This document shows, one piece after another, positions 39,907 to 47,380 of a stretch of DNA of 64,000 bases (position 1 is its first letter; each line of letters begins with the position of its first letter). Origin of the DNA: Ramlibacter sp. (GTDB lineage: Bacteria; Pseudomonadota; Gammaproteobacteria; Burkholderiales; Burkholderiaceae_C); assembly GCA_030695945.1 (NCBI GenBank), contig JAUYOG010000049.1, positions 186,001 to 250,000 on the forward strand, written 5' to 3'. The notes beneath the pieces are model-generated. The model ran no database searches. It was given only the letters and a program-made list of their open reading frames with translations, and was not told the origin of the DNA. Both the position numbers and the translations under genes were made by a program.

Positions 39907-40713
39907 ATGAGCCTGGACCTCGACTCGCGCCGGCGCGCCATGTTGGCCGAGATGGGCTTGAAGCTTTTCGAGCCTCCGGGCGTTCCCGGCGGCGATGAAG
40001 CGGCCTCGCATGAGCCTGCCCGGCCGGCGGGGCTCAAGCCGGCGACGGGCGGGGCCGTCCATGTGCCCGCCCCCATGTCGATAGCGCGGGAGGCTGCGCC
40101 GGAGTCGGTCTCTTCGCGCCCCGGCGTCGGGCTGATGGGGTGGGACGCGCTGGAGCAGGCCGTGGCGGCCTGCCGCGCTTGCCGGTTGTGCGAGGGCCGC
40201 CGCAATGCGGTGTTCGGTGTCGGCGACCGCCAGGCCGACTGGCTGATCGTCGGCGAGGCGCCCGGCGAGAACGAGGACCTGCAGGGCGAGCCCTTCGTCG
40301 GGCAGGACGGCAAGCTGCTGGACAACATGCTCAAGGCGCTGGGACTGGACCGGCACCACAAGGTCTACATCGCGAACGCGCTCAAGTGCCGTCCGCCGGG
40401 CAACCGCAATCCCGAGCCGCAGGAGGTGGCGCTGTGCGAGCCCTTCCTGCGCCGGCAGGTGGAGTTGCTGCAGCCGAAGATCATCCTGGCGATGGGCCGT
40501 TTTGCGGTCCAGTCGTTGCTCGGAAGCGCCGACCCGATCGGCAAGCTGCGCGGGCGGGCCCACCAGTACATGGGCGTGCCGGTGATCGTCACATTCCACC
40601 CGGCGTACCTGTTGCGCAACCTGCCGGACAAGGCCAAGGCGTGGGCGGACCTGTGCCTCGCGCAGGAAGTGATGCGCGCTCAGCCGGCTGCAGGCGCGCC
40701 GGCCGGGCGGTAG
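39907..40713 (+). CDS. Family 4/5-type uracil-DNA glycosylase (iron-sulfur)
   Basis: A 268-residue DNA repair enzyme that removes uracil from DNA. The N-terminal 80 residues are variable. The iron-sulfur pattern starts at CRACRLCEGR and includes the later LKCRPPGNRNPEP and LCEPFL cysteines. The catalytic loop IVGEAPGENEDLQGEPFVG and the uracil-binding FHPAYLLRN (near residue 233) are intact. The start could also be the ATG at 39886. The 3' end overlaps the convergent glycosyltransferase gene by 34 bp. It forms an operon with tsaB and rimI. Confidence 0.92.
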   Translation: MSLDLDSRRRAMLAEMGLKLFEPPGVPGGDEAASHEPARPAGLKPATGGAVHVPAPMSIAREAAPESVSSRPGVGLMGWDALEQAVAACRACRLCEGRRNAVFGVGDRQADWLIVGEAPGENEDLQGEPFVGQDGKLLDNMLKALGLDRHHKVYIANALKCRPPGNRNPEPQEVALCEPFLRRQVELLQPKIILAMGRFAVQSLLGSADPIGKLRGRAHQYMGVPVIVTFHPAYLLRNLPDKAKAWADLCLAQEVMRAQPAAGAPAGR

Positions 40714-41639
40714 GCCCGGGGTTCGACCACGCGCGCGGCGTAGTCGATGCCGCTGAACGCGGCGTAGTCGGCCAGGGAGCGATCGTTCCCGAGGGCATAC
40801 ACGCCGAGCGCAGCCCCCTCGACGAGCGCCGCCAGCCGGCCGCGCGAGCGCTGCTCCAGCGCCCACCAGTTCTGGGGCCGCCGCGCATCCAGCGAGTCGT
40901 CCCAGTGCATGGGCCGCGGCGGCGCCCCGGAGTCCGCGTTGTTGTACAGGTGGTAGACCGGCAGCCCGGGGGTGTGGAAGATGTCCCAGCCGTGCGTGAA
41001 GAGCCGCGCCGCCAGCGCCTGCTCTTCCCCGTGGAAGTAGAACCAGGGGTCGTACGGAAACTCCTGCGCGAACCTGCCCGGCGCGAATACGCAGCCGGCG
41101 CCAAGGTGATAGCCGGGGACCGGCTCGTCGGAATCCAATGGGTGGGCCTCGAAGCCCAGCACCGGATGCTCGGGCTCGAAACCGGTGCCGGGCTTGACCA
41201 CGTGGGCCAGGACCTTTCCGGTCGCCGGGCGTCGCACCGGCTGGCCGCCCTCGAACACGAACGCGTTCGGGTAGGCCGACAGCACCACGCCCTTGCGCCC
41301 CGGCAACAGGCGCAGCGCCTGCCCCATCAGACGCTCGTCCCATCCCGGGTCGAAGTCCATGTGGGAATCGATCTGGAAAAACCATTCCTCCCCGTCGTAC
41401 AGCGACATCGCGATGGCCCGCGCCCAGCAGGGGCCGCGCGCGTACAGCGGCTCCAGTCGGATATAGCTCAGGCGTGCCGGCGACAGATCCGCAGCCGAGG
41501 GCGCAGGCGCGCCGGCCGGGCTCTGGTCCACCACCCCGAAATGCAGATTGTCCGGCCAGCGCGCCGTTGCGATGGCGCGAGCCACCGTGAAGCCCAGGAT
41601 CGGGTCGCAATAAGAGGCAATGCTGAGGAAGATGCGCAT
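40680..41639 (-). CDS. GT60-type polypeptide N-acetylglucosaminyltransferase-like protein
   Basis: A 319-residue soluble glycosyltransferase with no signal peptide. It carries the hallmarks of the GlcNAc family (PF11397, GT60) known from Dictyostelium Gnt1, which modifies hydroxyproline of Skp1, and trypanosome enzymes that modify Thr of mucins: FLSIASYCDP (residues 4-13), FGVVDQ (34-39), ARGPCWARAIA (67-77), the DXD-like site in FFQIDSHMDFDPGWDE (Asp91-Ser-His93) and VVLSAYPNAFVF. The usual Arg in SYRD is Cys11. It is divergent from an exoprotein gene with 32 Pro-Thr-Pro-Ala repeats, a plausible acceptor. Donor and acceptor specificity are inferred. Confidence 0.8.
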   Translation of the reverse strand: MRIFLSIASYCDPILGFTVARAIATARWPDNLHFGVVDQSPAGAPAPSAADLSPARLSYIRLEPLYARGPCWARAIAMSLYDGEEWFFQIDSHMDFDPGWDERLMGQALRLLPGRKGVVLSAYPNAFVFEGGQPVRRPATGKVLAHVVKPGTGFEPEHPVLGFEAHPLDSDEPVPGYHLGAGCVFAPGRFAQEFPYDPWFYFHGEEQALAARLFTHGWDIFHTPGLPVYHLYNNADSGAPPRPMHWDDSLDARRPQNWWALEQRSRGRLAALVEGAALGVYALGNDRSLADYAAFSGIDYAARVVEPRAYRPAGAPAAG

Positions 41640-44900: not shown

Positions 44901-47380
44901 CCAATTCCGTGACGAACGTCGCGGCTTCGGTCGGGAATGGCAGCGGCACCAACACCTTCGCGCTCAAGACCAGCGGCGCGCTGAACGTCGGCTCCGGCAT
45001 CGACGGCCTTACGGGTATCTCGGTCGTTGCTCCTGCGGGCGGCTACAGCTCCGCCAGCCCCAACGGTTTCATTGCGCTGATCGCCGGCGGCGCACTGACG
45101 CAGGCCCCGGGAGCCACGCTCGCGGGCCTGGCCGTGTATGCCGAGGGCACCAGCGTCACGCTGACCGAATCGAACGTGACGGGCGTGATCGCAGGCAAGG
45201 CCACCGGCAGCGCGACCGGGTCCGTATTCAGGTACAAGAGCAGCAACGGAATCAACCTCGACGCGCTGCCGAGCGGCACGGGCGTGCAGAATGCGCTCGG
45301 CCCGGACGCCGTCGCCATCCAACTCGAAGGAACGGGCGTTTCGCAAACCAGCGGCGGGTCCGTCACGGCGGCGGGGGGCCTGAAGCTCGTCACCTCCGGC
45401 ACGGTCTCGCTGACGAATTCGGGCAACAACGTCAGCGCGTTCACCGCGACCGGCGCAAGCTCAGTGGGCTACCGCAACTCCGGGGCGCTGACCGTAGGCA
45501 TCGCGGGCACGGGCATCGGCGCTTCGGGTGGCGTTGACATTCGCAGCGCGGACGCGCTCACGGTGTCGGCGGACGTCGTATCCGGGACTGGCGTCACGCT
45601 CCAGGCCAATGGCGCCGGGAAGAACCTCAGCATCGGTGCCACGGTGAACAGCGGAAGCGGTGCGGGCTCGCTGGTTGCGAGCAACGACATCCTTTTCAAC
45701 GGGGCCACGCTGACGGGCAGCGGCACGACCAATCTCACCGCCGCTGCGGCGAAGGTGACGGGCGGCACGACGACGCTCGGCACCAACCTGACCGGCACGA
45801 TGTTCGATGTGTATGGAACGCTCGACGTTGCCGCCAACGTTTCGGTCAATTCGCTGGGCGTGGGAAGCGGGGGCTTGCTGACCGGCTCGAGCGACGTGAC
45901 GGCGAACCAGTTGCTGTTCTGGGTCGGCGGTTCGATGGCGGGCACCGGCAAGACGATCCTTGCATCCGCGGGCCAAGGCGTGCTGGGCGGCGCGGTCGCG
46001 CTGAGCCGTCCGTTGGTGAACAACGGGATCATCACGTGGTCCGCCACCGGCAACGTGGCTGTGTCGGAAGGCGCGAGTGTGGCCAACAACGCCGGGGCGA
46101 TCATCGACCTGCAGAACACCGGCGGTTTCAGCGGCACCGGCGGTGGCTCCTTCTCCAATGCGGGGCGGCTCCAGAAGAGCGTGAGCACCGGCACGAGCAG
46201 TGTGAGCGGCCTGAGCTTCACGAACACCGGGGCCGTGGAGGTGTACGCCGGTACGCTGCAGTTCGGCAACGCCGTGTTCTCGAGCAATGCCGGGCAAATC
46301 TGGCTGGCCACCAGCGCGACCTCCCTGAACAACTCCAACTCGACACTGGCGAACACAACGGCGGGCCTGATTCACGGCCACGGGACGCTGGACCTGGGCA
46401 CCGGCACATTGAACAACGATGGCGCGATCAAGCCGGGCACGCTAGGGACCATCGGTACGCTCACGGTGCTGGCTGGCGGCGGAACCAACCACGGCGCGAC
46501 GGCTAACCTCTACGTGGACATCACGTCCAGCGCCAACCACGACGTGCTGGCGACCAATGGCAACGTGGTGTTCAACCCGGCATCGAACGTTGTCGTGAAC
46601 AATGTCGCGCCTGCGTACTCGCCCGGCGACGCGTTCGATGTGGTGACCAGCAGCGGCGGCACGATCACAGGCACGCCACTGGTTACGGCCGGTTTCTCCG
46701 CGGCCCCCTCGCCTGCCGCCCTCTTGGTGACGGCTACCCCGGCCCCGACCGCCGCCCCGACCCCGGCTCCGACCCCGGCTCCGACACCAGCGCCGACACC
46801 GGCGCCGACACCAGCACCGACCCCGGCTCCGACACCCGCGCCGACACCCGCGCCGACACCTGCGCCGACACCTGCGCCGACCCCGGCGCCGACACCAGCG
46901 CCGACACCAGCGCCGACCCCGGCTCCGACCCCGGCTCCGACCCCAGCGCCGACACCGGCTCCGACACCTGCGCCGACACCAGCGCCGACACCGGCTCCGA
47001 CACCAGCACCGACCCCTGCGCCGACCCCGGCTCCGACACCAGCGCCGACACCAGCGCCGACCCCGGCTCCGACCCCGGCTCCGACCCCGGCTCCGACCCC
47101 AGCGCCGACACCGGCTCCGACACCCGCGCCGACACCCGCGCCAGCACCGGCCCCCGCCAGTGAAATTACGACCGTGGAGCGCATCGTCGAACTGCTGCGC
47201 AACAGCAACCGCTCGGAAGAAGCAGCGATTGCACTGATCGCCGAAGTGGTCGCCGAGATCGGCACCAATCCCCTCACGACATTCGTTTCACTCCTGGTGA
47301 CGGAAGAGAAATTGCAGGCGAAGGAGGAAAAGAAGACCCTGACGGCCGATTTCGTGGACAACAGCCAGTGCAAGCGCTAG
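41912..47380 (+). CDS. Filamentous-haemagglutinin-like (TpsA) exoprotein with PTPA repeats
   Basis: An 1822-residue predicted surface or secreted protein. GTG at 41912 gives an extended signal peptide (about 59 residues, ending GQALAQ); ATG at 41948 is an alternative. The haemagglutination/TPS domain (about 60-300) includes the family motif [13 protein letters not shown] and [11 protein letters not shown]. It is followed by a long Gly/Ser/Thr/Asn-rich region consistent with a beta-helix to about residue 1600, then 32 perfect Pro-Thr-Pro-Ala repeats (1616-1743) and a 79-residue tail ending QCKR. Cys1820 is the only cysteine I see in the mature protein. No TpsB pore gene is adjacent. The divergent gene encodes a GT60-like glycosyltransferase. 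Confidence 0.85.
46757..47140 (+). repeat. 32 tandem 12-bp units encoding Pro-Thr-Pro-Ala
   Basis: Thirty-two uninterrupted 12-bp units encode PTPA without exception. The first codon is always CCG, while Thr (ACC/ACA), the second Pro (CCG/CCA/CCC/CCT) and Ala (GCT/GCG/GCA) codons vary. A block of six or seven units occurs twice with nearly the same codon order (units 12-17 and 24-30), showing past segmental duplication. Confidence 0.97.

Follow-up and report, generated by a model that had tools for sequence, protein, structure and literature searches.

A GT60-type glycosyltransferase gene linked to two-partner secretion exoproteins with Thr-Pro tracts in Ramlibacter and in a second, Pdt-like system

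Why should a bacterium carry a glycosyltransferase gene of the GT60 family next to the gene for a large exported protein that carries a Thr-Pro repeat? The question is raised by a 64,000-nucleotide stretch of Ramlibacter sp. DNA (assembly GCA_030695945.1, contig JAUYOG010000049.1, positions 186,001 to 250,000 of the forward strand; hereafter the window), which belongs to a draft genome of 3.75 Mb in 73 contigs. The GT60-like gene (40680..41639, minus strand) and the gene for a two-partner secretion (TPS) exoprotein (41912..47380, plus strand) are divergent, and the 272 bp between them (41640..41911) presumably form a shared promoter region. The enzyme is a member of the GT60 family, PF11397, its neighbor is a TPS exoprotein, genes of the two kinds are linked in two TPS contexts, and Thr-Pro tracts are associated with the enzyme type. 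We tentatively propose, at somewhat short of an even chance, that the GT60 protein acts as a cytoplasmic "third partner" of TPS exoproteins that would O-glycosylate Thr/Ser-Pro tracts, resembling HMW1C in logic.

The 319-aa GT60 protein (ATG start) matched PF11397 as its sole Pfam family, with 156.5 bits (cut-off 21; E 1.7e-45), and its gene is the only PF11397 match in the source genome. The motifs on which the initial annotation had assigned it to GT60 (SIASYCDP, GVVDQ, ARGPCWAR, QIDSHMDF and LSAYP) are all present in the translation, and the profile match bore the assignment out. In an alignment of 35 homologs, D91, H93, G204, E205, E206 and H230 are invariant, which is in keeping with a predicted active GT60 enzyme. 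D91 and H93 form a D-x-H motif that we take to be the metal site. A sequence search of the PDB with the enzyme returned a single chance match (E 0.12). The closest named relatives are from Ramlibacter. PF11397 occurs patchily: it matched 44/60 genus genomes, 35/399 family genomes (with some weak matches) and 4/369 class genomes, counting the source genome itself. To our knowledge, GT60 enzymes have been characterized in eukaryotes only; the acceptor of the Trypanosoma cruzi enzyme is Thr.

The exoprotein (1822 aa, GTG start) has an extended signal peptide, as judged by eye, and an N-terminal TPS secretion domain at residues 60-305 (42089..42826, plus strand; PF05860, E 1.1e-27) together with the NPXG domain TIGR01901 (E 9.7e-20). 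It is the only TPS-domain match in the source genome, where a single TpsB partner (PF03865) is encoded on a different contig. The initial annotation had described a divergent exported protein, 272 bp away, with 32 Thr each between two Pro, and the translation confirmed this. The protein contains exactly 32 Thr flanked by Pro on both sides, all inside the tract (46754..47143, plus strand), as 32 perfect PTPA units. Across the codons of these units the first and second positions are invariant (0/256 bases), and three of the four third positions vary (45/96 minority bases). Variation at third codon positions only indicates that the PTPA tract is held at the protein level, by selection on the peptide. 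Since the window tract varies synonymously only, slippage of a GC-rich repeat was downgraded as its sole cause. Between the tract and the stop codon lies a C-terminal region of 78 aa (47144..47377, plus strand) that ends in DNSQCKR and matched no family in a Pfam scan. In many relatives the terminus is charged and has a motif resembling DxIVxTDxxCKP, with a recurrent Cys near the end (C-terminal alignment judged by eye); it may act as a signal for anchoring or retention.

Is the pair kept in relatives? It is framed by genes for DacB, TsaB, RimI, UDG and GlcD, and the block DacB-TsaB-RimI-UDG-GT60-exoprotein-GlcD is syntenic in the genus. From a sample of 60 genus genomes, three (G029, G031 and G033) fell outside the locus table, leaving 57 rows, and three more (G025, G034 and G045) were unscored for the exoprotein at contig ends, leaving 54 scorable loci; in G028, the contig breaks off after the beginning of the exoprotein. 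Both genes are present at 37 loci, GT60 alone at three (G005, G006 and G009), the exoprotein alone at seven and neither at seven, including G036, which has GT60 genes elsewhere (Fisher odds ratio 12.3, p 0.0015, phylogeny ignored). The genomes with exoprotein-only loci contain no PF11397 match at all; at three of these loci (G048, G049 and G052) the proteins are short (733-737 aa) and weakly similar (40-53%). The neighborhood conservation on which the initial annotation had staked its case was thus found in relatives, and a different TPS system likewise has this enzyme type next to it. A quick tree of the flanking genes, made without a mixture model, places at least eight changes in GT60 and at least seven in the exoprotein; given the three enzyme-only and seven exoprotein-only loci, strict co-inheritance was downgraded. 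Of 17 genomes examined, 13 have TpsB (PF03865), and those lacking it are the same four that lack TPS; one of these (G042) is only 76% complete. The exoprotein gene occurs in tandem copies at some loci, three in G002 and two each in G012, G019 and G050 (L120, L129, L135 and L155), with differing tracts.

The tract is hypervariable within the genus. It consists of PTPA in, for example, G002, G011, G012, G017, G021 and G057, of PSPS in G023 and G050, of poly-Pro in G004 and G047, and of PAPA in one G019 copy, and it is absent elsewhere. Loci L008 (Ramlibacter lithotrophicus) and L014 (Caenimonas koreensis) likewise carry the gene pair together with a PTPA tract. Thus, PTPA is not obligatory, and the idea of PTPA as an obligatory substrate was downgraded. 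We scored a Thr-Pro tract as at least 8 Thr and at least 8 Pro per 40 aa, in frames of at least 700 aa that include tandem copies and truncated frames. By this rule, a tract is present in 15/36 exoproteins at GT60 loci and in 3/3 of their paralogs elsewhere in GT60 genomes, compared to 0/7 exoproteins of GT60-less genomes and 0/13 of the other TPS proteins sampled in the genus. The pooled 18/39 differs from 0/7 with p 0.032 and from 0/13 with p 0.0019, where copies and relatives are non-independent. With Ser also counted, the respective numbers are 25/36, 3/3, 2/7 and 4/13; the G047 poly-Pro tract satisfies this wider rule.

Outside the genus, 22 genomes contain a strong PF11397 match, and 15 of them have a TPS match. 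The distance between the GT60 and TPS genes is at most 10 kb in 8 of the 22 and at most 15 kb in 10, where 0.27 and 0.36, respectively, would be expected by chance if the genomes were independent, which they are not. One of the ten linked cases (G065) has an exoprotein-like neighbor tail to tail with GT60, carrying the tract PTPAPTAAP. The other nine belong to a different system, made up of TpsB, a TpsA of ~3700-4270 aa, a DUF2341-ExbB fusion, ExbD genes, a TonB-like protein, a Porin_5 protein, a ~230-aa protein and, close to its end, GT60. Genes of these clusters, and of the G065 and G097 surroundings, were called by a crude codon-position-GC caller, and the cluster families were profile-checked in G353 only. 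The gene content, namely TpsB, a giant TpsA, ExbB, ExbD, a TonB-like protein and a porin, is shared with the Pdt locus of Pseudomonas aeruginosa, whose order is given in a passage of PMC7035377 as pdtA-phdA-pdtB-exbB2-exbD2-tonB4-PA0696; the likeness is one of gene content. Unlike Pdt, the GT60-linked cluster has ExbB fused to DUF2341, two ExbD genes and GT60 at its end. In one such cluster, ExbB (L206:12796-14508, minus strand) has both DUF2341 and a Laminin_G_3 lectin-like domain as fusion partners, an unusual energizing component for a TPS system. DUF2341 is found in 45/399 family genomes, with 11/22 of the GT60 genomes outside the genus against 34/371 of the others (p 3.7e-6, uncorrected).

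The giant Pdt-like TpsA proteins allowed the association between tract and enzyme to be assessed within one TpsA family. GT60 clades A and B were drawn only after inspection of a quick GT60 tree, calculated without a mixture model, that carries a warning of long branches meeting. All eight TpsA (~4000 aa) linked to a clade-B GT60 contain Thr-Pro tracts, whose Thr content ranges from 19 to 163 residues, placed at approximately residues 2350-3150 of ~4000, away from the end. The ninth linked TpsA, in G332, has no tract, and the G332 GT60 is divergent and falls outside clades A and B. As controls, we used the Pdt-like TpsA regions of all 34 family genomes with DUF2341 and without a strong GT60, among which G298 and G365 have a weak partial PF11397 match. 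Ten sequences that were not TpsA-like or were truncated were left out, giving 36 assessable TpsA, 26 of them without clade A/B GT60, including two from G332. A tract is present in 9/10 TpsA with a clade A/B GT60 and in 5/26 without (odds ratio 37.8, p 1.8e-4, phylogeny uncorrected). The association was retained at four alternative thresholds (p at most 0.0023) and on counting the left-out G309 and G412, which are tract-bearing and GT60-less (9/10 versus 7/28, p 5.5e-4). A quick TpsA tree, also without a mixture model, places three changes in the tract and five in GT60. The tract is likewise present in G295, whose clade-B GT60 is unlinked in the assembly. A PTPA tract is also carried by one TPS protein in G067 and one in G122, genomes in which a GT60 near the Ramlibacter clade is unlinked to TPS. 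Tracts are found in 0/5 other TPS proteins, of which four were taken from different clade-B genomes and the fifth is the only one of G440; further such proteins exist beyond this sample. The PT-repeat family PF04886 matched 25/399 genomes (6/28 with a strong GT60 and 19/371 others); this profile is insensitive, missing the window tract, and its match in G122 lies outside the TPS gene. The presence of GT60 in two TPS settings makes TPS exoproteins plausible substrates of this enzyme type, which would prefer Thr/Ser-Pro tracts.

Other genes recur around GT60 and the Pdt-like clusters. A small methyltransferase-like gene adjoins GT60 at 8 of 9 loci (L022-L029 and L031) and at 6 of 10 clade-B loci, the organisms partly overlapping; one such gene (L206:7009-7668, plus strand) overlaps the GT60 start and has its top Pfam matches under the cut-off. 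The methyltransferase may modify the glycan or a glycan carrier. In G097, GT60 adjoins genes that by eye resemble rmlA/rmlC of sugar-nucleotide synthesis. A Cupin_8/JmjC-type gene (PF13621, E 8.7e-35) is found in G232 (L270:8042-9037, minus strand) and G121 (L268:6336-7331, plus strand), with 91% mutual identity. It follows the Pdt cluster at about the place that GT60 occupies elsewhere, and the TpsA proteins of these two genomes are tract-bearing. Just past the G232 cluster lies a PhoD-like phosphatase gene (L270:6208-8076, minus strand; PF09423, E 9.3e-106), in keeping with the phosphate-starvation control of Pdt in Pseudomonas.

Several observations weigh against the proposed partnership. 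The two genes are separable, as the enzyme-only and exoprotein-only loci show, and the five well-supported independent pairs on the flanking-gene tree (exoprotein with GT60 in 1.7 and opposed in 0.4 on average) are too few and not significant, as are the pairs on the TpsA tree (same way in 1.9 and opposite in 0, of 5). The G005 enzyme keeps all invariant residues though its genome has no TPS or TpsB match, and 7/22 GT60 genomes outside the genus, including clade-B G391, have no TPS match. A tract is lacking from 15/28 C-terminally complete exoproteins at GT60 loci (those with a Cys within the last seven residues; 13/28 have one) and from the Pdt-like TpsA of G067, is still borne by the 5/26 Pdt-like TpsA without a clade A/B GT60, and at the loosest threshold appears in the genus controls (1/7 and 4/13). 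The steadiest clade-B GT60 neighbor is the methyltransferase, kept without ExbB/ExbD in the fetched stretch at L027, L029, L031, L204 and L212, and the clade-B GT60-TPS linkages probably share a single origin. The survey of co-occurrence of transferase and Thr-Pro exoproteins put forward in the initial annotation was largely favorable to it: tracts accompany the GT60 type in two TPS families, with the tract-less partners and GT60-less tracts just given on the other side. A strict pairing of enzyme and PTPA fails, since the nearest relative, with an 89% identical enzyme, has poly-Pro at the tract position and ten loci carry one gene without the other.

GT60 without TPS, exoproteins without GT60 and tract-less partners fit either a broader specificity or a wholly different acceptor. 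In the latter case, GT60 would modify lipopolysaccharide, exopolysaccharide or another protein, adjacency to TPS would reflect a gene order inherited within a lineage that rearranges slowly, and tracts would expand for other reasons. The synteny of the whole DacB-to-GlcD block, the TPS-less GT60 genomes, the rmlA/rmlC-like genes in G097, a methyltransferase neighbor independent of TPS and the non-significant phylogeny-aware tests are all consistent with this. We nevertheless consider it rather unlikely, as one enzyme type lies beside two different TPS systems and the tract association is seen inside one TpsA family, and further TPS proteins sampled from the genomes concerned have no tract.

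Alternatively, GT60 might modify the beta-helical body of the exoprotein, and the Pro-rich tract might be an unmodified linker before the C-terminal region. In Bordetella FhaB, as described in a passage of PMC11077949, a proline-rich region adjoins the extreme C terminus. The window protein is likewise a TPS exoprotein whose Pro-rich region lies close to the C-terminal end, a likeness of position; a passage of PMC3983070 describes FHA as non-glycosylated. The window tract directly precedes the recurrent C-terminal region, the letters of the tract vary freely with Pro retained in many relatives, and more than half of the complete partners at GT60 loci have no Thr-Pro tract. For the tract itself, by this analogy, an FhaB-like linker is a serious alternative. 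As an account of the enzyme and tract together it seems unlikely to us, because in Pdt-like TpsA the tracts track the GT60 type and are not terminal. A further possibility is that the acceptor is hydroxyproline, as in Skp1, with a prolyl hydroxylase acting before GT60 adds GlcNAc to the tract. GT60 chemistry is known on Skp1 (in a passage of PMC6939170), Pro is common to the PTPA, PSPS, PAPA and poly-Pro tracts, and two tract-bearing genomes have the Cupin_8/JmjC-type gene after their Pdt cluster. Those two genomes have no GT60 match, however, many GT60-locus partners have no Pro-rich tract, and no hydroxylase was found among the six window proteins scanned against Pfam (the genome at large was not searched for one), so that we regard this route as very improbable.

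Returning to the proposal of a TPS third partner, what we infer concerns catalysis, acceptor residue, sugar, linkage, compartment and role. A soluble cytoplasmic GT60 would add a simple sugar, probably GlcNAc, O-linked to Thr or Ser beside Pro in disordered tracts. This would happen before the protein is exported by Sec and goes through the pore of a TpsB whose gene lies elsewhere, and the glycosylated tract would form an extended, protease-resistant stalk or linker. The tract would be a preferred, non-obligatory site, and partners that have none would either carry the modification at Ser/Thr-Pro sites elsewhere or remain unmodified. HMW1C of Haemophilus influenzae offers the closest comparison, as an enzyme of family GT41, N-linking to Asn, that works in the cytoplasm, with no lipid carrier, to glycosylate a TPS adhesin (in a passage of PMC3983070). 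Like HMW1A/HMW1B/HMW1C, the window system combines a TPS exoprotein with a linked, single glycosyltransferase gene (37/54 scorable loci). Unlike HMW1C, the enzyme is PF11397/GT60 instead of GT41, the linkage would be to O of Thr/Ser-Pro, the window gene is divergent and TpsB is unlinked. As the enzyme family differs, GT60 is not an HMW1C member, and the comparison is limited to how it would work. With the eukaryotic GT60 enzymes, Gnt1, which acts on Skp1 hydroxyproline, and the T. cruzi polypeptide alpha-GlcNAc transferase (both in the passage of PMC6939170), it shares the Pfam family PF11397; it differs from them in being bacterial, in adjoining a TPS gene and in having a predicted activity, and the Skp1 acceptor is hydroxyproline. 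A dense Thr/Ser-Pro tract, a mark of mucin-type O-glycosylation, is found in the window (32 PTPA) and is variable in relatives. A wider version, in which GT60 densely glycosylates Thr-Pro tracts as a bacterial mucin-like module coupled to at least two TPS systems, with the methyltransferase perhaps decorating the glycan in some lineages, is possible but doubtful. Our search of openly licensed papers found no report of bacterial GT60/PF11397, of GT60 with adhesins or of O-glycosylated Pro-rich FHA-like proteins.

If the proposal is correct, bacteria possess GT60-type protein O-glycosylation, and HMW1C is joined by a second, independent type of glycosyltransferase that partners TPS adhesins. The compact pair, with a 319-aa enzyme, a defined PTPA repeat and environmental hosts, would then be a readily testable model of the effects that simple O-glycans have, when attached to Pro-rich stalks, on secretion, stability and adhesion, and the enzyme might be a tool to glycosylate Thr-Pro tags.

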